IMG/VR virus record: IMGVR_UViG_3300020463_002553 | Location: 1 to 21,650 of that record | DNA: 21,650 nt | Direction: 5' to 3' (one strand) | DNA from: a virus | Program-made: the position numbers and the translations under genes | Shown: in pieces, positions 2,724 through 21,650 of the stretch | Layout of the letters: each line of letters opens with the position of its first letter | How positions within the stretch are numbered: the stretch's first letter is position 1 | The notes under the pieces: model-generated | What the model saw: only the letters and a program-made list of their open reading frames with translations | The model's database searches: none | What the model was told of the DNA's origin: nothing

Positions 2724-4073
2724 TTAAGATGTTGCTCGATTGGCAATATAATCACGGATTTTCTGAGCGATTTGCTCATTAGGAATTGAATTTGGATTAA
2801 ATAAGGCGAGGAACTCCAAATCAATAGAAGGGTTTGAGGTTTGATTAGCATTGTTTTCGCAACCAATCGCAAATTCTTCTGCAGACAGATTAGATATTGA
2901 TGTGCTGCTTGTTTTTTGGCCAGCGTTATCAACCGACGAAGATTGGGCGTTGTTTACAACTTTAACTTCATGTAAAAAACTACCTTTATCTTCATCATAA
3001 AAATCGTTATGTATCAATCTGTATCCTCCGTAGTAAGAGGCCAGATCGTTTGTGGAGCCCTTTTTAATAGCGTAAACAAATCCTGTGTTGGCTGTTTCGT
3101 TTTGATTAGTGGAGTTTATAGCAAACACCCTTGAGGCAGCGTTCCCGCCGTCGCCGTTGATGCTAAACACTGCGAAATAATACCCACCGTCTGTAATTGT
3201 CCGGTTCAGTTGTCCCCGAAGCGAACTCCCCGCCGAAGTAACAAAGCGTAAAACACTACGCCTAATAATTTTGGCCGGGTTTTGACCAGATTTATGTATG
3301 GTTACAGTCTGCCCAGATCCAGAGGTAAACGAAGATGCTCCGTGTGCAACAGTTGAATCTGTAAAATCTATGTCTAGGACTGGTGTGCCTGATGCTGTGG
3401 AATTTTTCCAAATCCGAGCCCGACTAATTTTTCCCCTCAGCCGATGGTTGACGCCATCATCCCGAGCGCCTATCGCGATGTCTGACGTGGTGCTCGCAAT
3501 AGCGTCGGAAGGAACGGTCTGAGAAGTTCCAATGGAAACATAACCCGAACCAGAATCTAACTCTGCTGTAATAGCGGTTCCTACCCGAGTCAGTCGGATG
3601 CTTGCAATCGCTGAACCAGTAATACCGTGAGCAAAGTTTGAATTTACCGTTGCGCTACCATAGACAGCCGAAAAATTAACGTTTGAAACGTTTCGACGAA
3701 AAGTAAATGCGCTTCCGCCAGAACCGAACTTTGAAAAAAAGGTTTCAGTTCCAGTGGCCCAGTTGGACATATAGACATCCTTCGCCTCCATGACGAAATC
3801 AGTAATGCCATTGAAGTCTGCGGAATGCGGGACGGTCGCATAGTTACCAGTTACACCAGATAGATGCAGATAGCCTTTACCATTGGCGTCCAAGGGCAAC
3901 GCTCTAGGCTGTTTAAGAGCCGTCGTCTGTTTGGCGTCTTTTGCACGATTCCCTAAATTTGCTTCATTTTTTAAAATAGGGACGGCATCCAAAAAGTCCG
4001 CTTTTGTTGCCGATTCAGTAAGAATTGATGCAGACGTTGAAGCGTTGGTAAGTGTCGATAAGCTGAGGGACAT
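2724..4073 (-). CDS. Tail fibre/adhesin with LamG-like (concanavalin-fold) domain
   Basis: A 449-residue virion protein, probably a receptor-binding fibre. The N-terminal 50 residues are helical and Ser/Thr/Lys-rich. From about residue 65 to 250 there is a LamG-like beta-sandwich: YLHLSGVTGNYATVPHSADFNGITDFVMEAKDV opens it, and KISRARIWKNSTASGTPVLDIDFTDS closes it, the usual ending of laminin-G-like modules. The remaining ~190 residues are beta-rich and contain NRTITDGGYYFAVFSINGDGGN and a C-terminal segment EFLALFNPNSIPNEQIAQKIRDYI; a YF-variant second LamG-like module is plausible. No signal peptide or enzymatic motif. It follows a different carbohydrate-binding adhesin, so the tail tip may carry two receptor specificities. 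The leader is AT-rich without Shine-Dalgarno or RTTGACR. Confidence 0.78.
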   Translation of the reverse strand: MSLSLSTLTNASTSASILTESATKADFLDAVPILKNEANLGNRAKDAKQTTALKQPRALPLDANGKGYLHLSGVTGNYATVPHSADFNGITDFVMEAKDVYMSNWATGTETFFSKFGSGGSAFTFRRNVSNVNFSAVYGSATVNSNFAHGITGSAIASIRLTRVGTAITAELDSGSGYVSIGTSQTVPSDAIASTTSDIAIGARDDGVNHRLRGKISRARIWKNSTASGTPVLDIDFTDSTVAHGASSFTSGSGQTVTIHKSGQNPAKIIRRSVLRFVTSAGSSLRGQLNRTITDGGYYFAVFSINGDGGNAASRVFAINSTNQNETANTGFVYAIKKGSTNDLASYYGGYRLIHNDFYDEDKGSFLHEVKVVNNAQSSSVDNAGQKTSSTSISNLSAEEFAIGCENNANQTSNPSIDLEFLALFNPNSIPNEQIAQKIRDYIANRATS

Positions 4074-4095: not shown

Positions 4096-5448
4096 TCACA
4101 ACTGACTGCTATGCGTTGGCCAGTAAATCAAACGCTTGTAATGAAGCGGGACTGGTGTGTCTTTTCCTAACTTGATTGACGTTTTTCCTGAAAAAGAACC
4201 GTCGTGATTACCAGAATGCTCAGACCCGCCGTTAATGCTTCCTTTCATTGCCGTGGAACTATAGCTAAAGCCGATTCGGTTAACCTGAGAATCTAGCGCT
4301 GGTCCATAATTAGCTCCATTCGTCCCATCAAAAGTCTGAACCTGAGCGCTGTTGTTGTTGGTGTATAAAATTAATTCACTTGAGCTTCCCCCATGCCCCG
4401 TCAGTAACCGCACCGTCTTGAGTATATCGGTTGGAACAACTTCAAGGTAAAATGTGCCCTCCCCGCCAGTGTTAAAGAAGTCCGTGAAGGCAGTCCCGTC
4501 GATGCTAATTAAGTCAGCGGGTCGCGTCACGCCTGAAACGTCATTGTCTGTTGGTATGTAACTTGTTGCTATGCTTCCTAATTCAAACTGTGTGCCGTAA
4601 ACAAGGACGCCTGTAGTCTCATTGGTTCCATCGAATAATTCTACAGGATTATTTGACGCATCTCGTTTGACCAGCCTAACCCCACTGTAGAGTAGACCGT
4701 TATTAATTTGGTTCTGAAATGTATAAGTAACCTTGTATCTGAACCATCCATTTCCATAGTCCTCTGACGATGCTGAAATAACATTCCCCTCTGTAGATTT
4801 AAGTGAACCGTCTAATGAATCAAATACTGCGCTTTCTGATCCAAAAAACCCACCGACTTTAAGGAAATAATCGTAACCGTCGGTTTTAAGCCAAACGCTC
4901 ATTGTGACTACAGCATTTGAGTTATAAGAACCCGAGTAGCTACTACCTCCCCGATGTGTAGCGTCACTTCCGTCCGGAGTCATTTTAAAAGATGATGCCT
5001 GACCGTTAGGTGCTAAAATATCTGAAGCTGAAAAAGTAATACCAGAGCCATAATTGTAAGCGGTAGAGTCCTCAGACCATCGAATCGTGTTGGTCGCACT
5101 CGGCTCCACCAGAATCATCGGCACTCCATCAACGTGATCAACGCGCACCGTGTTGGGGCTGGCCACCTGAATTAAGCCTGAGCTGTTTCTGAATGTTGCC
5201 GTTGTCCCTGCGCGGGTCGCGGTAATCACATCAAGTGTCTGGGGCTTGCTCGGGTCAAGGTCGAGTGTAAATGCTTCAAGCGTTCCGCGCATTGATGTCT
5301 CTGCATCAAAAAAAAGGTATGGGTCCAGAGTTAACGGATCAAAAGAACTTGCCCCCGAAAAACTTAATGCGCTGAAATCATAAATCCCGCCTTGGTCATA
5401 AAGACCAGCGTTATCTTGAAGGCCGGCATTTGTAAGAAGGCGGCTCAT
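4096..5448 (-). CDS. Carbohydrate-binding tail adhesin
   Basis: A 450-residue protein of the type seen in many phage tail spikes and fibres. The recognisable blocks are VDGVPMILVEPSATNTIRWSED (the LIEPxxTN motif) near residue 120, a CBM-like beta-sandwich from about 130 to 300 (SVWLKTDGYDYFLKVGG, NGWFRYKVTYTF), the hinge YGTQFELGSIATSYIPT...TRPADLISIDG near 285-315, and a second LamG-like region to the end (GEGTFYLEVVP..., KLGKDTPVPLHYKRLIYWP). The TSYIPT/TRPAD combination is a well-known signature linking two such beta-sandwiches. It probably binds cell-surface glycan. Its ATG overlaps the stop of the 82-aa gene before it (ATGA), so the two are co-translated. Confidence 0.82.
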   Translation of the reverse strand: MSRLLTNAGLQDNAGLYDQGGIYDFSALSFSGASSFDPLTLDPYLFFDAETSMRGTLEAFTLDLDPSKPQTLDVITATRAGTTATFRNSSGLIQVASPNTVRVDHVDGVPMILVEPSATNTIRWSEDSTAYNYGSGITFSASDILAPNGQASSFKMTPDGSDATHRGGSSYSGSYNSNAVVTMSVWLKTDGYDYFLKVGGFFGSESAVFDSLDGSLKSTEGNVISASSEDYGNGWFRYKVTYTFQNQINNGLLYSGVRLVKRDASNNPVELFDGTNETTGVLVYGTQFELGSIATSYIPTDNDVSGVTRPADLISIDGTAFTDFFNTGGEGTFYLEVVPTDILKTVRLLTGHGGSSSELILYTNNNSAQVQTFDGTNGANYGPALDSQVNRIGFSYSSTAMKGSINGGSEHSGNHDGSFSGKTSIKLGKDTPVPLHYKRLIYWPTHSSQL

Positions 5449-11505: not shown

Positions 11506-11895
11506 TTATTGCGCCGCACCCATGAACGGTTTGAAAACTCCGGTGAGGTCTAAGCTTTTAAATGCTTTATTCCCATATCCTAGACTTACCCCGGTAAGGA
11601 TTGTTTCTCCGGCGTCGTCATCAGAAGCACCATTTACAAAGCTTGCGGCGTCGATAGAATTGGCAACTGCAAGAGAAGCTCCCAGATCAGTAGAAAAAGC
11701 AGTCCCACCAGTTTTAACAAATCCGTTGATGGAAATTGAAGCCGAGGCATTTGTAAAACCCCCCGCGACGTCATCACCAGCTTCATCAGGAAGGAAAGTC
11801 TCGTCGATACTGTAACCCACCGAAAGGTCTTGGGCATACATTCCAACTTCCGCGGTGACTCCAAACACAGCCTCTCCGTAAATCTTTGCGCTCAT
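11506..11895 (-). CDS. Probable major tail (tube) protein
   Basis: A 129-residue protein, MSAKIYGEAVFGVTAEVGMYAQDLSVGYS... ending LTGVFKPFMGAAQ. It is small, acidic, Ala/Gly/Ser-rich and beta-predicted, without membrane span. Position supports the tube role: it comes after the tail terminator candidate and before the chaperones and tape measure, and it is followed by its own strong terminator, as expected for a highly expressed structural gene. ATG 11895 is preferred; the upstream in-frame TTG at 11919 would translate the RTTGACR element. It could instead be a truncated-looking tail tube relative, since it is short for the lambda gpV class; no direct sequence motif proves the family. Confidence 0.7.
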   Translation of the reverse strand: MSAKIYGEAVFGVTAEVGMYAQDLSVGYSIDETFLPDEAGDDVAGGFTNASASISINGFVKTGGTAFSTDLGASLAVANSIDAASFVNGASDDDAGETILTGVSLGYGNKAFKSLDLTGVFKPFMGAAQ

Positions 11896-11909
11896 AATTC
11901 GCTTAGTGC

Positions 11910-11916
11910 TGTCAAC
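11910..11916 (-). promoter_or_regulatory. RTTGACR start-associated element before the major tail gene
   Basis: GTTGACA; TTGAC ends 15 nt before the ATG at 11895, in a 36-base spacer without Shine-Dalgarno. Confidence 0.6.
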
Positions 11917-11931
11917 CAAAACGGTCAGTTT

Positions 11932-13581
11932 TTACAATTCAAAATTGATTTTGAGAACCCGGTTTGATGACTGCGGAGCGAGGTAAATCGAATTTTTATC
12001 TGTCACCCCGTAGCTGAACCAAGAATGTCCAAGAGTCCCCGCCGTGCTTAGTTCGGTCGAAATATCACGAAAACCAATTTCGTCAGTCTGTGGATTGATC
12101 CAAAACAAAAACGGGATCTCGTACGGCACTGAATAAATCCACCCATTTGGACCCAATACCGACGAGTAAGATTTCATTTTGTTCGTGGTCACCGGGTAGC
12201 TTGAATCGTGATTGAAGGAAACATCTGAAACGATTAGAGCGGACGGAAGAGGAATTTCTTTTGCGCTGTTTGTTAGCGTGTCGATTTTCAGAATCGAGTT
12301 GGCATGACGCGGGAAACAATAAATGGACTTGTTCAGAGTTGAAAACGTTCCTCCCGAATACTTATTCCAATAGGCGTGTTTTGACCATAGATTTCCATTA
12401 TACGATCCTAAATAATAAGGCTCGTTTCCTGTCAAATAGTCAGAGCCGACTGTCACGAAGTCGTCGGAAGAAGGATCAACAACTACGATGCGGTCTGCGC
12501 CGTGGGGAGTCAGAAAAATTTTTCCATTCTCGGCTTTGGTTGCGCCGAAAAATGAATCATACATCCATTTCAAAGTCGATCCAAGCTCACTTTGCCAATT
12601 GCTTCTTAAATCGTAGATCCCGCCGGATCGAACTTCGTCACCATTTGAATCGAGGGTGCCAAAAATAATATTGATCCGCGATTTTGTCACGCTCGCGATG
12701 TCGAATTTTGAGATAAAGGCAATCGGATGGTCGGTGACGTTTCGCGAGTACACTGAACCATAGATTGCCCCACCACTCTCGGCACCTCCGCGAAGTGACT
12801 CGGGAGAAAAATTAGCCTCAGAGCCATGTCCTAAATAATCCCTCGGATGTTGAACAAATGGATCGGCCTGGGATGGATCGATTTTTAAATATGACGTGTT
12901 TTGATTTGGGTTTGCATAAATCGCCCCGTTATAGACTAGAGAATCGATGTATTTTGAATTCCCACCCTGGATCGTGATTGATGGAGAAAGATCGCTCGAT
13001 TTGGTCACTGTATCGTCAGCAAGATCGATTATCAAAAGCTCGTCCTCGATATTTGGCGAAGCATACAATTTCCCGTCTAGCTTTGATAATGCTCTCCATT
13101 TAAGATTTGTTCCCGATCCCAAATCGCCGCCGATATATTCGAAAGTAAAATTTTTCTCTTTCCCACAAATCACGGCCGAGAATCCGAGGCGACCTAAAAG
13201 GAACTTGTCTTCCTGTTCGAATGCCCCATCCGCAACCCTGAAATCAAACACGGCCAACTCGTCAGTTCCTAATCCTCTCGCGTTGGTGTGAAGATTGATC
13301 CAATCTTTTGCCCTTAGTCTAAGGGCGTCATTGATTTGAGAAAGCTCGTCCCGTTGCGTGGCGTCGGCCACGTCCCGGTTGCGGAACTTCAGAATCACCT
13401 CGCCGTCAATTTCAAAGACTTGGTCCAAAGCTTCATGCTCTACTGGATCTTCTGCGTCTAAGATTAAAGTTTTACCGTCTTTAGTCCCGCCAAAGTCTCG
13501 AAGCCTGGGAGTGAGGCCGAGCGAAAGGTCTTGATTCAAAAACTCGCCCAGGGCGACCAAAAGCCGATCAGATACCACCAT
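11932..13581 (-). CDS. Probable tail terminator/completion domain fused to a beta-propeller
   Basis: A 549-residue protein with two parts. Residues 1-145 (SDRLLVALGEFLNQDLSL..., INDALRLRAKDWINLH, DELAVFDFRVADGAFEQEDKFLLGRLGFSAVICG) have the length and layout of a tail terminator (lambda gpU position), and the gene precedes the major tail gene. Residues 160-549 carry at least seven copies of a motif of the form xIYxxPxxxxxxLxIDP: KLYASPNIEDELLIIDL (171), AIYANPNQNTSYLKIDP (220), a degenerate copy near 272, KIFLTPHGADRIVVVDP (354), SIYCFPRHANSILKIDT (419), WIYSVPYEIPFLFWINP (481), SIYLAPQSSNRVLKINF (531). Spacing of about 50-80 residues fits propeller blades. The role may be surface decoration or glycan binding at the head-tail joint. 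An in-frame TTG at 13602 belongs to the RTTGACR element. The propeller call is stronger than the terminator call. Confidence 0.8.
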   Translation of the reverse strand: MVVSDRLLVALGEFLNQDLSLGLTPRLRDFGGTKDGKTLILDAEDPVEHEALDQVFEIDGEVILKFRNRDVADATQRDELSQINDALRLRAKDWINLHTNARGLGTDELAVFDFRVADGAFEQEDKFLLGRLGFSAVICGKEKNFTFEYIGGDLGSGTNLKWRALSKLDGKLYASPNIEDELLIIDLADDTVTKSSDLSPSITIQGGNSKYIDSLVYNGAIYANPNQNTSYLKIDPSQADPFVQHPRDYLGHGSEANFSPESLRGGAESGGAIYGSVYSRNVTDHPIAFISKFDIASVTKSRINIIFGTLDSNGDEVRSGGIYDLRSNWQSELGSTLKWMYDSFFGATKAENGKIFLTPHGADRIVVVDPSSDDFVTVGSDYLTGNEPYYLGSYNGNLWSKHAYWNKYSGGTFSTLNKSIYCFPRHANSILKIDTLTNSAKEIPLPSALIVSDVSFNHDSSYPVTTNKMKSYSSVLGPNGWIYSVPYEIPFLFWINPQTDEIGFRDISTELSTAGTLGHSWFSYGVTDKNSIYLAPQSSNRVLKINFEL

Positions 13582-13605: not shown

Positions 13606-14286
13606 TTAGCGATTAATTTTCTTTTCGGCTTTTTTGAGATTTGCCCGCATTTCTCTTCTTAACAAATTTCTAAGTGAACGATCTTTTGCCCTCATTGCTC
13701 TTTTTACCCCTCGTTCGCCCATTACTCGATCGCTTGCAACGTGCGCGGGCTCTGCTCTAAATGTCCAAATTGCTCCGAAAATACTTCTTTTTCGGCGAGA
13801 AGATCCAGTTTTTTTCCACCTTTGAATCCAAGATTTAAAGTTGTGTTTTATCTCTGAAGGGTTGCCACCTAAAACCGAACCTTTTGCCATTCCTACATTT
13901 TTGAGAACCTTACGCTCGTAGCTTTTAAAAATACTGTTTAAAATGTTCCGCTTGTTGTTTGTTTCCCGAGTTCTCCCGCGGGAACCTCTTTTTGATTGAT
14001 GAAACGATTGAGCTTCAGCAATCGAGGTAATTACTCCCCGTCGACCTCGAGCAGACTCTGGAACGACTCGAAAAATATTTCCAAGATCTTTTTTAATAGC
14101 TCCGCGTCCCATACTAATGGCTTTTTGACCTAAACCAAATGGCTCTGCATTTCGAACAACCGTATCACGAACCGATTTTGCCGCTTTGTTTGCAAACTGG
14201 CCTGCGGAAAGCCCAAGCTTTTTTTTAAGCTTAGCGGTTTCCCTGGCAAGCTCGCGAGCTCCCTGGACTTTGACCTTCAGCCTCAT
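13606..14286 (-). CDS. Basic minor tail / head-tail joining protein (gpZ-position)
   Basis: A 226-residue, strongly basic protein starting MRLKVKVQGARELARETAKLKKKLG. The N-terminal region AGQFANKAAKSVRDTVVRNAEP is typical in style of HK97 gp10/lambda gpZ-like tail completion proteins, and the C-terminal half is Arg/Lys-rich helix (RVMGERGVKRAMRAKDRSLRNLLRREMRANLKKAEKK). An upstream in-frame extension exists, but ATG 14286 overlaps the previous stop (ATGA) and gives the better start. Position between the FII-like gene and the terminator candidate agrees with a tail completion role. Low-complexity basic composition limits certainty. Confidence 0.75.
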   Translation of the reverse strand: MRLKVKVQGARELARETAKLKKKLGLSAGQFANKAAKSVRDTVVRNAEPFGLGQKAISMGRGAIKKDLGNIFRVVPESARGRRGVITSIAEAQSFHQSKRGSRGRTRETNNKRNILNSIFKSYERKVLKNVGMAKGSVLGGNPSEIKHNFKSWIQRWKKTGSSRRKRSIFGAIWTFRAEPAHVASDRVMGERGVKRAMRAKDRSLRNLLRREMRANLKKAEKKINR

Positions 14287-14492
14287 TTTTTGGCGTTTTT
14301 GCCATACTTGAATGAATCCCAATCTGGCCCCCGGTCTTCGTTTTCATTCAGCCACCTATCACAAGCTTCCCTGACCTCATCGAGAAGCCTAACCGCTCGA
14401 AACTCGACCCCGCAAAACCTTTGCATTCCTGCTTTTGAGCCGGTCCCTCGGCCGCGCTTTTCATAGGCAAATTTTCGTTTTGTTCGTGACAT
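14283..14492 (-). CDS. Small basic hypothetical protein in connector block (69 aa)
   Basis: A 69-residue protein, MSRTKRKFAYEKRGRGTGSKAGMQRFCGVEF..., basic at the N-terminus and charged-helical after that (RAVRLLDEVREACDRWLNE). I chose ATG 14492 because it starts five bases after the upstream stop; the longer reading from 14729 is a shadow of the upstream gene. The stop overlaps the next ATG. It has no named motif. It sits among head-tail joining genes and is probably a small connector or assembly factor. Confidence 0.65.
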   Translation of the reverse strand: MSRTKRKFAYEKRGRGTGSKAGMQRFCGVEFRAVRLLDEVREACDRWLNENEDRGPDWDSFKYGKNAKK

Positions 14493-14496
14493 AATT

Positions 14497-14814
14497 TTAG
14501 ACAGTTTCGAGTTCCACGCTCCACGCAACATCTCCAGGCTCGAGCAAACATTCCTCGACGCGATACTCGACCGAATCCAAAGTGATGGCGGTTTCCCTGG
14601 GAAGCCCGGCGGCGGGGAGGTTAGCAGTTCGAACCCGGACCATGACGCGGCCCTCGTTTTCAAACCCACCGGGCTCGGCTCCTTGGACGACCTCGAGGCC
14701 AGACCTGGAGCACGCAAAGGTCGAACCATTGTATGTGATCGATCCAGGGAAAACGCTTTCCAAACTTTCTTGGGCTTTCTCTAAAAATGCGATTCGGGAC
14801 GTGGCCAAACTCAT
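14497..14814 (-). CDS. Head-tail joining protein, lambda FII-like
   Basis: A 105-residue protein, MSLATSRIAFLEKAQESLESVFPGSITYNG... It matches the pattern of FII-like tail-attachment proteins: an N-terminal helix, a middle beta-segment VMVRVRTANLPAAGLPRETAITLDSVEYRVEEC (the strand-turn-strand around a hydrophobic core) and a short hydrophobic C-terminus WSVELETV. Position after the major capsid gene agrees. It is the first gene downstream of the capsid terminator and has its own RTTGACR leader. Confidence 0.72.
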   Translation of the reverse strand: MSLATSRIAFLEKAQESLESVFPGSITYNGSTFACSRSGLEVVQGAEPGGFENEGRVMVRVRTANLPAAGLPRETAITLDSVEYRVEECLLEPGDVAWSVELETV

Positions 14815-17000: not shown

Positions 17001-17007
17001 CGTCAAC
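17001..17007 (-). promoter_or_regulatory. RTTGACR start-associated element before the protease gene
   Basis: GTTGACG; TTGAC ends 16 nt before the ATG at 16985. It overlaps the HAD gene stop (TAGTTGAC). The spacer is entirely pyrimidine-rich, so no Shine-Dalgarno pairing is possible there. Confidence 0.62.
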
Positions 17008-17300
17008 TATAGAAATTTGGTCACGATTTTGGTGAACTTTGTCCACCCCCAAGCCATATCGTCGACGATGTAACCAGGCTTCCCAATCACTTGGGAAAAA
17101 TGATCCTCAAGACCAAACCTCTCCACCACCGCGGCGGCGTGTGGTCGTCCTCGAGCGGTCCACAAGATGACCTCAAACCCCTCAAGCTTTTTTTGTTTTG
17201 CCCAATTCGCTAGAGACCAATTAATTTTCCCCCGCTTTAGGAGCGTCCCGTCTACGTCAATCGCGATGCACTTGGGCGGCGCAAATATACCTTTGGCCAT
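17007..17300 (-). CDS. HAD-superfamily phosphatase-like protein
   Basis: A 97-residue protein with all four HAD motifs in order: IDVDGTL (nucleophile Asp15 and general acid Asp17), ILWTARG (Thr48), Lys74 in IGKPG, and VDD (Asp80, Asp81). It is about the smallest length for a HAD core, with almost no cap, so it may act on a macromolecular or bulky phosphorylated substrate; the real substrate is unknown. It lies between portal and protease, one base after the portal stop, and uses no RTTGACR leader, so it is translationally coupled to the portal. Lambda has no equivalent at this place. It could process nucleotides, DNA/RNA ends or a phosphorylated protein. Confidence 0.88.
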   Translation of the reverse strand: MAKGIFAPPKCIAIDVDGTLLKRGKINWSLANWAKQKKLEGFEVILWTARGRPHAAAVVERFGLEDHFSQVIGKPGYIVDDMAWGWTKFTKIVTKFL

Positions 17301-17301
17301 G

Positions 17302-18828
17302 CTAGTCGACTAGACCGGCCTCGGCCCGTTGTTTTTTAATATATGCTTGCTCGTTGGCAACTTTCGCCTCCTCCGTTTTCCAGTCTTTACCTTGGCGGGC
17401 CCACCATTCTTCCCGAGTCATGAGCCCTTGATCGAGGAGAGCCAAGTCAAGCTTCCCGTCGCGGCCCCGGTCGATTGTCAAATCGGCTTGTGGAATCCAA
17501 GACGTCTTCCACCAGGTATCCTGCAACTCAGGGGGAATCACCAGGTTGCCCCGCTTTGCCTCCTTGGCAGAGAAGTACATCCAAATCCTTTGGCAATCTC
17601 GTCTCCCGCGTTCTTGCTCGTCCGCGACAAATCTCCGGGTTTCCGACATCACAAAGCGCATACCGGGCCCGTTCATCTGAGACGCATCCCAGAGAACTTC
17701 GGGAGACAGCCCACCGTGAGGGAGCCCCCAAGCCATATCGCGAATTAACCAGGACAAAAGCCCAAGCACGTTCGGATGAGGCCGCGTATCGTTCATCGTG
17801 TGCAGACTCTGCCCTGGAGAAAACTCTTGGAAGCGACCCCCTTGAACAACGTCCTCGACAGAAAGAACATTTCCGTCAGGCAAAGTTTCCCCAGAAAGAC
17901 CTTCGACTTCTGCAATCTCAGCGGTTTCCCCAGCCGCCTCCAGGAACCCCTTTAGGTCTTCGCCAGGGTCTTCATTGTTTTCGGTATTTGCCCCTTGCTC
18001 GATCCAGGCTCCCCACAAAGCCGCCACTTTTACGGCGTGTTTCGTGTCGGCTATAATTTCGACCATATCGAGGAAATTCGCCACCGCGTGAGCAAGGCCC
18101 GACACTGATCGAACCCGCCCGGCTCTTCCTCCGATTGAATGATAGATTGACCGGTCGCGAGAAACAACTTTGGCCGCCTTTCCTTCATCGTCTAAAAGCT
18201 GGAAACCTGACCGTCCCCCAAAGCGATCCAAAAAGATTCCATCATAAAGGTTTTTCGGCTGGTCTCTTCTCCCTTGACCGTCGCCGATCTGGTTCCCCTC
18301 GTAACACATCACGCGAGCCGCCCCATCCGGCCCCGAGGCCAAAACAGTCAGACAATCACCAGTCCTGATTTTTGACTCTCGAATCCAGGTTTGCCAGTCC
18401 AGAAAATCGAAATTGCCCGCCCCGTCAAATGCTAGAGGATTTTTCAGTCTGTTTCCAACTTTCTCTTCTATCTCGGCTTCAAAATCAGCATTTCCCGCCT
18501 GGCTCTGTGGGTGTAGATTTCCGACTAACCGAGCCGGTCCTTCTATGGCACGTTTTACAAATCCTACATTCTGCTCGGCCGCCTCAACTTTCCTGGAAAT
18601 CTCCAGCCTTTCCGTCGGTGAAACTCTTCGCTTCGGATTAAGTGACGGCATGACAACCCGGCCACGACGGTCCGAATGCCTTGCGGCATCCCAGGAGGAA
18701 AGCATCTTAATCAGGTCGGATTTTGTTCTTGGAAGTCCGTCAACTGGCTTTTTTGAGGCCGCTTTTCTGGCTTGAACTTTCTTTCCCGCCCTAGTTCCTC
18801 GCCGTGATTTTTTTGAGTCCTGCCCCAT
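17302..18828 (-). CDS. Portal protein, lambda gpB family
   Basis: A 508-residue dodecameric portal through which DNA enters the head. The lambda-family pattern is clear: an N-terminal basic segment (residues 1-50), NVGFVKRAIEGPARLVGN, FLDWQTWIRESKIRTGDCLTVL, the domain SRDRSIYHSIGGRAGRVRSVSGLAHAVANFLDMVEIIADTKHAVKVAALWGAWIEQ (HxxxxxxxGqxRGvs region and crown helix), and GRFQEFSPGQSLHTMNDTRPHPNVLGLLSWLIRDMAWGLPHGGLSPEVLWDASQMNGPGMR, followed by the C-terminal KREDQGLMTREEW-type end. The length is normal for the family. The leader has the RTTGACR element and no Shine-Dalgarno. Confidence 0.94.
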   Translation of the reverse strand: MGQDSKKSRRGTRAGKKVQARKAASKKPVDGLPRTKSDLIKMLSSWDAARHSDRRGRVVMPSLNPKRRVSPTERLEISRKVEAAEQNVGFVKRAIEGPARLVGNLHPQSQAGNADFEAEIEEKVGNRLKNPLAFDGAGNFDFLDWQTWIRESKIRTGDCLTVLASGPDGAARVMCYEGNQIGDGQGRRDQPKNLYDGIFLDRFGGRSGFQLLDDEGKAAKVVSRDRSIYHSIGGRAGRVRSVSGLAHAVANFLDMVEIIADTKHAVKVAALWGAWIEQGANTENNEDPGEDLKGFLEAAGETAEIAEVEGLSGETLPDGNVLSVEDVVQGGRFQEFSPGQSLHTMNDTRPHPNVLGLLSWLIRDMAWGLPHGGLSPEVLWDASQMNGPGMRFVMSETRRFVADEQERGRRDCQRIWMYFSAKEAKRGNLVIPPELQDTWWKTSWIPQADLTIDRGRDGKLDLALLDQGLMTREEWWARQGKDWKTEEAKVANEQAYIKKQRAEAGLVD

Positions 18829-19189: not shown

Positions 19190-19366
19190 CTATCGACGTT
19201 TTTTTGTTTTAAGGGAAAGTATTGCCAGGCGAGCTTCTTCGGTGATTTTCGTTGAACCTTTCTCTCGGAAGTTGATCGTCTTTCGCGACACTCCAAGGAT
19301 AGCCGAAAGCTTGGCCTGTGTCAGACCGAGCTTTTGGCGGATTGATTTATATTTTTCTGGAGTCAT
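19190..19366 (-). CDS. Small XRE-type helix-turn-helix regulator (58 aa)
   Basis: A 58-residue DNA-binding protein, MTPEKYKSIRQKLGLTQAKLSAILGVSRKTINFREKG... ending KTKKRR. LTQAKLSAILGVS followed by RKTINFREKG is the classic helix 2-turn-helix 3 of the lambda Cro/XRE family, and the basic tail may add DNA contact. It lies between terminase and the gpW-position gene, on the same strand as the late genes. Two operator-like repeats lie upstream of the cassette at 19951-20003, and it may regulate itself or the following late genes through them. The binding target is inferred. Confidence 0.88.
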   Translation of the reverse strand: MTPEKYKSIRQKLGLTQAKLSAILGVSRKTINFREKGSTKITEEARLAILSLKTKKRR

Positions 19367-19373
19367 TCAAAAA

Positions 19374-19697
19374 CTAAAATTTACTTTCAGCCCAAATGAT
19401 TTCTTGCAGGTCGGCTGGTTCAGCATTCGGTTTTAAAGACCAACCGTCTAAGTCGTCGGCCTCAAAACTTTCAGGGGTGAATTGATCCATTTCATAAATC
19501 TCATTTTTAAAAGCTTGAAAATGATCGTGGAAGGAACTTGAAGAAAAATTTATTTCAATATGCTTCACCGCGTCACTTCGATCTGCAAACTCGTACCATT
19601 CATTGAATGGACTGCTTCCGCTCGAGGCAGAAATATATATTTTTTTAGGATCGCTGTTCCAAAAATCTGGTGCGCCCGCTTGTTGTTCGTATTTCAT
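19374..19697 (-). CDS. Hypothetical acidic cassette protein (107 aa)
   Basis: A 107-residue protein from ATG 19697, four bases after the upstream stop. It reads MKYEQQAGAPDFWNSDPKKIYISASSGSSPFNEWYEF... and is acidic and aromatic-rich, ending DLDGWSLKPNAEPADLQEIIWAESKF. It has no membrane span and no motif I recognise. A longer reading from 19796 would overlap the previous gene and is rejected. The gene is AT-rich relative to its neighbours. With the 67-aa gene and the HTH gene it forms an operon-like cassette inserted between terminase and the head genes. An accessory role (host takeover, superinfection immunity or anti-defence) is possible, but nothing in the sequence proves one. Confidence 0.75.
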   Translation of the reverse strand: MKYEQQAGAPDFWNSDPKKIYISASSGSSPFNEWYEFADRSDAVKHIEINFSSSSFHDHFQAFKNEIYEMDQFTPESFEADDLDGWSLKPNAEPADLQEIIWAESKF

Positions 19698-19701
19698 TAG
19701 C

Positions 19702-19905
19702 TTAAGAATTTGAATTATTGATGCCGTTTTTAACGACGTGAGCGAGTTCTTCATAATTAAAATTGAGAAGAACGCGGATTTCTTTTTTAGTATCAACGTC
19801 TACCCCTAGGCATCCGAGAGCATAGGTTTCTTCGTCGTGGTCAAAAACTTTATCGATTGATTCAATTACAAAAGTGTAGTTTTTTGGTGTTTCTAGTTTT
19901 GTCAT
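19702..19905 (-). CDS. Hypothetical small cassette protein (67 aa)
   Basis: A 67-residue protein, MTKLETPKNYTFVIESIDKVFDHDEETYALGC... ending FNYEELAHVVKNGINNSNS. It is acidic with a possible beta-beta-alpha layout. It is the first gene of the AT-rich cassette, with an A-rich leader (AAATAAAAAA before the ATG) and the operator-like repeats upstream. No family recognised. Confidence 0.72.
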   Translation of the reverse strand: MTKLETPKNYTFVIESIDKVFDHDEETYALGCLGVDVDTKKEIRVLLNFNYEELAHVVKNGINNSNS

Positions 19906-19921
19906 TTTTTTATTTAGTTCG

Positions 19922-20003
19922 ATCGAAGGATTCGTTTTCTTCGATAAGAAAAGGTAACTTATTGTTACGTATGACGCAACCCTAAAAGGTAACTTTTTGT
20001 AAC
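19922..20003 (-). promoter_or_regulatory. Operator-like repeats upstream of the HTH cassette
   Basis: Three structures lie in the 112-base gap after terminase. Two repeats begin with AAGGTAACTT: 19951-19968 (AAGGTAACTTATTGTTAC) and 19986-20003 (AAGGTAACTTTTTGTAAC), 35 bp apart. The first contains the perfect dyad GTAAC-N5-GTTAC; the second has one mismatched half. A perfect 7-bp inverted repeat, ATCGAAG...CTTCGAT with a 10-nt loop, lies at 19922-19945. These fit binding sites for a small dimeric HTH protein such as the one at 19190. No consensus promoter is obvious. Confidence 0.6.
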
Positions 20004-20017
20004 TTTTTTTTATGTTC

Positions 20018-21650
20018 CTAATCTCTCACCGCTGACCGGCACCAAACATCTCGACCAATCACCGCCATCTTGACCGCGTCGCCAAAATCATTAGGACCAG
20101 ATTCTCGTTCCCATCCCCACTTCCCGCCTTTCTTTATTTGGTATTCCCGGCAAAGCTCGAGGAGAAACTCATCATCTCGAAGAGCGTCGACCGGAAAGGT
20201 CAGCTTTCCAAATTGCTCGACCTCCACGCCTTCCTCGTCGACCTGGTTGCGATCAAGAATGAGCGTCCGATAAAGAAGCCGCCGATATGAATCATCATCG
20301 TAGTGGAGCACCTTGACCAATCTCATTCCTTCCTGCGTCGTTTTAAAGACTCGGCTCTTACTCCAACGAAGGAGATCGCCACCTCGTTGGCGGACCTGCA
20401 TCCCTGCAATGCCTTTTGAAGGACTAAATATTGGAGCCAAACTAGAGCAGTTCTTTCGGACTTCATAAGTCCGGTGGCCCCCCTCATCAGTCAGGTTGCA
20501 TCGCACCGAGTATTTGACGCCCTCGTGTTCGATTCCGGCTTGAGCCCAAGACAATAAATTTTTCCAGGTCAGAAACGACCCCCAATCAGAAACCATAATA
20601 TCACCTTCCGCGGAATATCCGACTTTGACCGCCTTCCAGGAATCATCTTGGGTATCCGCAAAGACTCCGCAAAGGATGGGCTTTTTAGGAACCGTCTTTC
20701 GGCGGTAGTCACCACACATTTCGCGCACGTCGCTCAAGCGTACCCTTCGTGATCCGCCTTCCGCCCAGGCTTCCCCGAGTCGATCCTGGAGAAATCCTTT
20801 TAGCTTAACTGGTTCCCGCCCAGCAGCGTGTTTTTCAACTGCGAGATTTCCCCAGGTTGAATTCTCCCAAAGTGCGTAAAGGTCGTTATGGTAAAAGCTC
20901 ATCCGTTTTGGCAACCAACCAGGAACTTTTTCTTTTTGGTCGCCTTCCCCTTTACCAACGTAATTCGTGGCCCTGACTTCACCGTTTGCGAGCATTTCTT
21001 TCTTATCGCTTTCTTTGTGCATTCCGCCACAAGACTCACATTCGTATTCTGCCTTCTGAATGACTTTTGCGAGATCCAGGTCTCCAAACTTGTCACGCAA
21101 ATGTTGATATCTAACCTGACCCATTTTTAAATATTGAAAATGGCCACAGTGCTTACAGGGGACAAAATCGCGATGGCCGGAACCGGTTGTGACAAGCTGC
21201 CAGATTTGACCCTCCTCGATGGTGGGTTTTGAAAAGCCCAGGATTTTCCCGCTGACCGTTGCTTTTCCGCGTTGTGCGAAAAGGTGAACAGTTGACCCGT
21301 CTACTTGCGTGTCCCTGTGTGTATCTATTTCATCTATGACAACGAGTCCTACGCCAGGTTTGGAAGCGGCTTGACCGACGGAGCCTGCACCAACGAAATA
21401 ACAGTTCATTCCTGGCAGAGAAATCACGTCGCCCTTCAAATAAGACTCTGGAAGCTTGGCAACGATGTCCCCCATCGACTGCGAGCTTTTTAAAAAATCA
21501 ACGTATCTTTCCGCAATCGCCGATGCGTTCTTGACCGCGTCAATGGCATAAACAATGTTGGTAGGAGCATAATCAGCCCTTCGAACCATTTCCATTAATG
21601 AATGAGCGGTGACCGCAGCTTGTGAACCTTTTGCACCGTAACATTCCCGC
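20018..21650 (-). CDS. terL: Terminase large subunit, lambda gpA-like (partial, N-terminus beyond right edge)
   Basis: The packaging ATPase/nuclease, gpA family. The frame stays open to the right edge with no stop, so the true start lies outside and the internal ATG at 21595 is not the start. Visible blocks are GAKGSQAAVTAHSL near the edge (a divergent Walker-A region), VGLVVIDEIDTHRD (Walker B), a Zn-ribbon CKHCGH...CESCGG, KLKGFLQDRLGEAW, then the RNase H-like nuclease: LCGVFADTQDDSWKAVKVGYSAEGDIMVSDWGSF with acidic ADTQDD, and near the C-terminus ESGPNDFGDAVKMAVIGRDVW with the last conserved Asp. It is followed by a regulated accessory cassette, not directly by the gpW-position gene as in lambda. 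Confidence 0.94.
   Translation of the reverse strand, partial: RECYGAKGSQAAVTAHSLMEMVRRADYAPTNIVYAIDAVKNASAIAERYVDFLKSSQSMGDIVAKLPESYLKGDVISLPGMNCYFVGAGSVGQAASKPGVGLVVIDEIDTHRDTQVDGSTVHLFAQRGKATVSGKILGFSKPTIEEGQIWQLVTTGSGHRDFVPCKHCGHFQYLKMGQVRYQHLRDKFGDLDLAKVIQKAEYECESCGGMHKESDKKEMLANGEVRATNYVGKGEGDQKEKVPGWLPKRMSFYHNDLYALWENSTWGNLAVEKHAAGREPVKLKGFLQDRLGEAWAEGGSRRVRLSDVREMCGDYRRKTVPKKPILCGVFADTQDDSWKAVKVGYSAEGDIMVSDWGSFLTWKNLLSWAQAGIEHEGVKYSVRCNLTDEGGHRTYEVRKNCSSLAPIFSPSKGIAGMQVRQRGGDLLRWSKSRVFKTTQEGMRLVKVLHYDDDSYRRLLYRTLILDRNQVDEEGVEVEQFGKLTFPVDALRDDEFLLELCREYQIKKGGKWGWERESGPNDFGDAVKMAVIGRDVWCRSAVRD

Follow-up and report, generated by a model that had tools for sequence, protein, structure and literature searches.

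In order to establish whether a gene lying in the tail terminator place of a lambda-like phage really encodes a terminator joined to a beta-propeller, and what such a protein could do at the neck of the virion, we analyzed the 21,650 nucleotides of the IMG/VR virus record IMGVR_UViG_3300020463_002553 (the window). This record is a metagenomic contig of 21.65 kb, which may be a fragment.

The fusion gene and its genomic setting

The gene begins with an ATG at 13581 and ends with a stop codon at 11934-11932 on the minus strand, the plus strand of the same span being closed by many stops. The open frame and its translation confirmed the coordinates 11932-13581 given in the initial annotation and placed the gene on the minus strand. 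Together with its neighbors, it is listed below.

11932..13581 (stop codon included), minus strand: fusion gene, predicted tail terminator plus beta-propeller, 549 aa (open frame and translation)
11506..11895, minus strand: next gene, in the tail-tube (lambda V) place (gene order, conserved in relatives; function by position only)
13606..14322, minus strand: preceding gene, in the lambda Z (tail completion) place (gene order; function by position only)
14497..14814, minus strand: stopper (gpFII-like) candidate (Pfam Phage_attach, E 0.017, below cut-off)

Read on the minus strand from the head side, the window carries a GpA-type terminase, a gpW-sized gene, a lambda-family portal, a small HAD-like gene, a ClpP-type protease and a gene in the capsid position. 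The order continues with the gpFII-like stopper candidate, the Z-place gene (for which an HK97-gp10 hint was very weak, E 0.98), the fusion gene, the small V-place (tail-tube) gene, two small genes and the tape measure, after which come tail-tip and fiber genes, a holin-like gene and an amidase. The capsid, Z and V genes of the window were assigned by order only. When compared with the lambda record, in which the order is FII-Z-U-V-G-T, the window has the lambda order with the fusion gene in the U place, where the initial annotation had put it. In the window and in six IMG/VR relatives alike, this gene sits between the Z/stopper and tail-tube genes.

Other observations concern the head region. 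A small HAD-like hydrolase gene (17007-17300) lies between the portal and the protease, and relative L002 has one too. A low-GC insertion (19195-20019, about 0.8 kb), which is missing in L001 and L002, separates the terminase from the gpW-sized gene and carries ORFs of 140 and 67 aa without any Pfam match. Among named phages, the sole match of the portal (17302-18828) was to Akkermansia phage Moulinsart (28%), hinting at a possible Verrucomicrobiota host for the window phage; a portal-based scan of bacterial genomes found no host.

A predicted tail terminator domain at the N-terminus

In the six relatives (L001, L002, L005, L007, L008 and L142), the same gene is present at the same place, is 144 aa long and lacks the propeller. 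The part of the fusion that corresponds to it is the following.

13162..13581, minus strand: putative terminator domain, residues 1-140 (identity to stand-alone relatives, gpU-like model, Foldseek matches to terminators)

This domain is 78-84% identical to the 144-aa stand-alone genes of L001, L002, L005, L007 and L008, and 67-68% identical to that of L142, the most distant of the six. Residues 1-143 were modeled by AlphaFold2 with the six relatives in the alignment; the best model reached a pLDDT of 76 and a pTM of 0.71, the other four models a pLDDT of only 40-47. It contains, in order, helix 2-19, strands 25-27, 37-43 and 55-67, helix 73-96, and strands 109-116, 120-124 and 127-140. Lambda gpU consists of a five-stranded antiparallel sheet and two flanking helices, with an O-loop between beta1 and beta2 and an E-loop between beta2 and beta3 (PMC10721106). 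The model likewise displays two helices and an antiparallel sheet with O- and E-loops, and the order of its elements matches that description.

Furthermore, a Foldseek search of residues 1-143 against the PDB ranked solved structures of tail terminators and of tail-cap or neck proteins highest. Lambda gpU was among the leading matches (3fz2, 3fzb and 8iyd, TM-score normalized to the target up to 0.72), as were the monocin cap and the Bxb1, T5 p142, Mu, R4C and T1 proteins. At the sequence level, residues 1-143 gave no significant database profile match, no sequence profile linked them to gpU or to a named terminator family, and a single-sequence comparison with gpU yielded one short local match (E 0.12). 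Because terminators in general share almost no sequence (PMC11784142), the gpU-like call rests on fold and gene position, as is usual for these proteins. The predicted structure supports the assignment of residues 1-143 as a tail terminator domain.

A predicted beta-propeller at the C-terminus

11935..13152, minus strand: predicted seven-bladed beta-propeller, residues 144-549 (blade motifs, AlphaFold2 model, Foldseek, 48-55% identical full-length homologues)

The blade starts were followed with a strict motif, [ILVF][YF]..P, 5-6 residues, a hydrophobic residue, any residue, a hydrophobic residue and D/N. It occurs six times in residues 143-549; in 5000 shufflings of the same residues, the mean number of strict motifs was 0.01 and the maximum 1. 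The seventh blade start is degenerate (AIYGSVYSRN...FISKFDI, about residues 272-295) and has a long hairpin insert. A full-length AlphaFold2 model, built with four phage homologues in the alignment, shows seven four-stranded blades (counted from the DSSP line) in a closed ring, the last blade being completed by strand 145-150. In the propeller, 10-residue blocks reached a pLDDT of up to 93, with some loops below 50. The terminator part of the same model had a pLDDT of about 37, so that the model is no guide to the mutual orientation of the two parts.

When the propeller was compared with the PDB by Foldseek, the best matches were virginiamycin B lyases (Vgb), which we take to be seven-bladed propellers (TM-score normalized to the target 0.77-0.79, about 10% identity). 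A profile made of the six repeats retrieved mainly propellers from the PDB sequences (designed SAKe proteins, BACUNI_02894 and YncE-family proteins), over short stretches only. Scanned against Pfam, PHROGs and NCBIfam, the whole chain showed sub-threshold propeller hints only: DUF6923 scored 18.6 bits against a curated cut-off of 27 and TIGR02276 (YVTN-type repeat) 13.6 against 27.85, scores that place the chain in neither family. A reading of the propeller as a P22 gp10-type nozzle was rejected, as the two have nothing in common beyond the fold class.

On the basis of the model, residues 144-549 are predicted to form a closed seven-bladed beta-propeller. The initial annotation had described a terminator-like N-terminus (residues 1-145) followed by seven motifs in about 390 residues. 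The first part was borne out by the model and by Foldseek, which, used as an equivalent of the proposed HHpred search, matched solved terminators above all else; the homologous part is residues 1-140. As for the second, the motifs do make blades in the model, seven in number, and Foldseek agrees with a closed propeller, but only six motifs are strict, the seventh is degenerate and the span is 144-549.

The junction and the origin of the fusion

13153..13161, minus strand: junction, residues 141-143 (KEK), where the relatives have xDP(A/S/V) and a stop (junction sequence comparison)
11896..11931, minus strand: spacer, 12 new bases followed by the intergenic sequence common to the relatives (TTGGTTGAC...) (comparison with L008)

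The chains of the relatives end with ...FSA(V/I)IVG-xDP(A/S/V)-stop. The window chain reads ...GFSAVICG-KEK-NFTFEYIGGDLG... and continues for 406 more residues to ...VLKINFEL-stop. At 12 bases past this stop, the intergenic sequence of the relatives, TTGGTTGAC...ATGAGCGCAAAG, picks up again. Since the terminator ends match and the intergenic sequence is regained 12 bases past the stop, the insertion lies exactly at the terminator end. The GC content is 0.441 in the insertion and 0.512 in the terminator part, compared with 0.44 in the propeller of L132.

Both flanks of the fusion are collinear with the relatives, and the join is in frame at the domain border. A frameshift or a separate ORF was rejected, the frame being continuous; upstream of the in-frame GTG or TTG codons at residues 137, 154 and 172, no evident Shine-Dalgarno sequence was seen, and an internal start within the fusion frame is possible. 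The continuous frame, the collinear flanks and the exact in-frame join indicate that the annotated fusion is real on the contig. Computation established the open frame, the two folds, an acquisition in frame relative to the relatives found, and the mobility of the module, which is described below.

One propeller module in three settings

When single proteins were used as queries, no propeller relatives were found in viral_contigs, genome_contigs, phages or plasmids; in the contig collections such searches were probably blind, as they need exact short peptide seeds. Relatives were found by scanning a back-translated blade motif over IMG/VR, with follow-up scans. These propellers, in L021/L129 (one contig), L131, L130, L132/L051 (one contig) and L168, are 48-55% identical to that of the window, over the whole length where complete. 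The L131 propeller is identical to that of L021, and the nearest known copy of the window propeller is only about 55% identical.

L021:10537-12192, L130:1991-3469 and L132:9941-11260: free-standing propellers with Ser-rich ends
L008:10376-11953, L132:8865-9938, L130:843-1991 and L168:5424-6515: genes ending in the partner domain
L168:8388-10595: propeller-bearing 318-aa protein, 736-residue frame

In L021, L131, L130 and L132, the propeller is a free-standing gene with Ser-rich ends, located between a gene ending in a partner domain and a GT25-type glycosyltransferase gene. Glycosyltransferases of GT25 and GT8 type follow the free-standing propellers, together with a GT2-type/methyltransferase gene in L131. 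The Ser-rich ends and these neighbors suggest that the products are glycosylated virion proteins. The partner domain is a conserved C-terminal domain (STAIVPMDW...FINSAYPR, 70-80% identical), and the gene directly behind it is Ser-rich and in most cases encodes the propeller. This arrangement is seen in podophage-like contigs and also in L008, a siphophage closely related to the window phage. L008 has both a plain 144-aa terminator and a separate free-standing propeller gene, placed directly after a tail-tip gene which bears the partner domain at its end; the contig stops inside the propeller.

In L168, the propeller is inserted in a loop of a 318-aa protein, which is uninterrupted in L130, L131 and L132. 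The partner domain is kept in L168 and is followed by a different Ser-rich protein. For the 318-aa carrier, neither a PDB profile nor PHROGs nor phage tblastn gave an identity. The borders of the module are nearly equal in all three settings (free, inserted and appended). Apart from L008, the propeller contigs look podophage-like from their gene content, and L129/L021, L131, L132 and L168 have nearby fiber-like genes homologous to 4096-5448 and 2724-4073 of the window.

Judged from these comparisons, the propeller is a mobile module, here grafted onto a putative neck protein. The initial annotation had not seen that the propeller is mobile and common to podophage-like contigs, nor that it is missing from every one of the six terminator relatives. 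The partner domain was looked for in the window and is absent from it; as this contig is possibly a fragment, the window phage may encode its partner elsewhere.

The fused propeller has kept 154 (74%) of the 209 residues that do not vary among four other phages, against a mean identity of 30% in the variable columns. The kept stretches include W.YD and AY.NKYSGGT. Much of this conservation may be structural. The pattern argues that the fused propeller, of which one copy joined to a terminator is known, would have retained a function. As the invariant residues are kept in a window without the partner domain, we infer that an outside ligand is favored over partner docking.

Proposed function and alternatives

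We propose that the phage gained the propeller by recombination and that the module was appended covalently to the terminator C-terminus. The terminator part would form a hexameric ring between the stopper and the tail tube, and the virion neck would then carry about six propellers. The propeller would act as an accessory adhesin for a ligand on the host surface or on a particle surface, the covalent mounting at the neck replacing the mounting through the partner domain used by the free-standing form elsewhere. We lean slightly towards this account as a whole, namely a true terminator carrying a mobile propeller as a neck-mounted accessory adhesin. By analogy with terminators in general, the hexamer and its neck position are very probable. 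An outward-facing propeller with an adhesive role is less secure, and we would call it an even question; that the free form docks on the partner domain is plausible, with the balance tilting somewhat against it.

The propeller homologues beside fiber genes represent a virion-type setting, which counts in favor of an adhesin. In a 936 lactococcal phage, a carbohydrate-binding module (CBM) of the neck passage structure bound host cells, although weakly (PMC6669499), and such proteins are subject to domain exchange (PMC10684548). Some terminators bear an extra C-terminal domain, for example in PVC16, and T5 p142 with a C-terminal tag showed aberrant polymerization, the tag possibly folding into the lumen (PMC11784142). 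Owing to this behavior and to a linker of three residues, an outward path of the propeller is not assured. A broader and rather unlikely proposal would be that the module travels among tailed phages that differ in build and colonizes head-tail connectors (the terminator here, and the 318-aa protein of L168 if this is a podophage neck protein). It would thereby create a class of propellers, covalently mounted at the neck in about six-fold number, that act as adhesins or enzymes and recognize a conserved ligand.

The principal alternative is a structural brace, in which the propellers would clamp the head-tail joint (capsid, stopper or first tube ring) and stabilize the particle, with no host binding. 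The very short linker and the propeller loops, conserved and not diversified, would suit this role, and the Ig-like domain of the R4C adaptor, which is in contact with the capsid, was argued to have a role in local stability, not in adsorption (PMC10276861). However, the six relatives manage without a propeller, and the same propeller is free-standing or carried by another protein in podophage-like contigs with no common neck partner, for which an outside ligand fits better. A brace is therefore improbable in our opinion. Alternatively, the neck could display a lyase- or hydrolase-type domain degrading polysaccharides or glycoconjugates, since virginiamycin B lyase, the top match by fold, is an enzyme and the polar loop residues are strongly conserved. 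The identity to this enzyme is nevertheless about 10%, propellers are promiscuous as a fold, no catalytic site was identified and no enzyme family was matched by sequence, so that we give an enzyme little chance.

It is slightly harder still to regard the propeller as a recent passenger, that is, a failed recombination product tolerated in one genome and neutral or mildly harmful. The single known instance and the six of six relatives without propeller would be expected for such a product. Against it stand 406 codons without a stop, the preferential keeping of conserved residues, a join exactly at the domain borders and a nearest copy only about 55% identical, although the time of the fusion is not datable from that identity. 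Finally, two genomes falsely joined in metagenome assembly would be conceivable for a metagenomic contig whose propeller family is present in other virus contigs, but this chimera was rejected as very improbable, given the collinear flanks, the in-frame join at a domain border and a closest known propeller only about 55% identical, because of which no near-identical donor and no shared sequence able to cause a false join were seen.

Comparison with known systems

The protein behind the proposed neck-mounted adhesin resembles several known systems in part. Lambda gpU and the T5 p142, R4C, Bxb1 and Mu terminators are like residues 1-143 in fold, size and place between stopper/Z and tube genes. 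Unlike these, the window protein has an extra propeller of 406 residues, and there is no significant sequence similarity. Larger known terminators possess other extra domains; in PVC16, for example, the terminator fold is duplicated (PMC11784142).

The neck passage structure of the lactococcal 936 phages is alike in displaying accessory binding domains at the neck, with six fibers in the published model (PMC6669499), the binder of the window being putative. In the 936 phages, the CBMs belong to separate collar-and-fiber proteins, whereas the propeller and the terminator share one chain. The R4C head-tail adaptor with its Ig-like domain similarly has an accessory domain fused to a connector of a marine siphophage (PMC10276861). 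The Ig-like decorations (lambda gpV, T5 pb6, SPP1 gp17.1*) are also mobile domains set in frame on the C-terminus of a tail structural protein; they differ from the window domain, which has a propeller fold and not an Ig, FN3 or Big fold, and from its terminator carrier, terminators not being among the five carrier classes reviewed (PMC9022992). The free-standing propellers of L021, L130, L131, L132 and L008 belong to the same family as that of the window and differ by the Ser-rich ends, the preceding partner domain and, in most, the glycosyltransferase genes downstream. Virginiamycin B lyase and YncE-like propellers share the seven-bladed fold and are cellular proteins, not virion parts.

Occurrence and significance of the fusion

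In 50,697 phage records, no match was obtained for the fusion, its terminator or its propeller, and neither these records nor the IMG/VR scans contained a second terminator-propeller fusion. With the L132 propeller as query, the phage records gave two Cylindrospermopsis phage proteins at about 25% identity. The papers retrieved by a literature search combining tail terminators with beta-propellers did not deal with such a fusion, to judge by their titles and abstracts. The statement that no standard lambda-like phage has it has thus held as far as the phage records and IMG/VR scans reach.

Domain shuffling in virion proteins is well known, and propeller-type proteins are common in phages; the novelty is a new domain at a new, constrained place. 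Tail terminators lie at the joint of the virion that is under the strongest constraint, and only a few decorations of this site are known. As a natural fusion, the window protein suggests that a domain of 45 kDa can be tolerated at the C-terminus of a terminator. It also offers a direct test case for a contribution of neck-mounted binders to adsorption. A single propeller family is found free (also in a close relative), inserted and appended, which provides a natural experiment on the movement of virion modules between tail types that also share fiber genes. In the virus contigs L049 (6350-9521) and L033 (4312-7852), propeller genes with near-regular blade repeats were also observed, two or three of them side by side.
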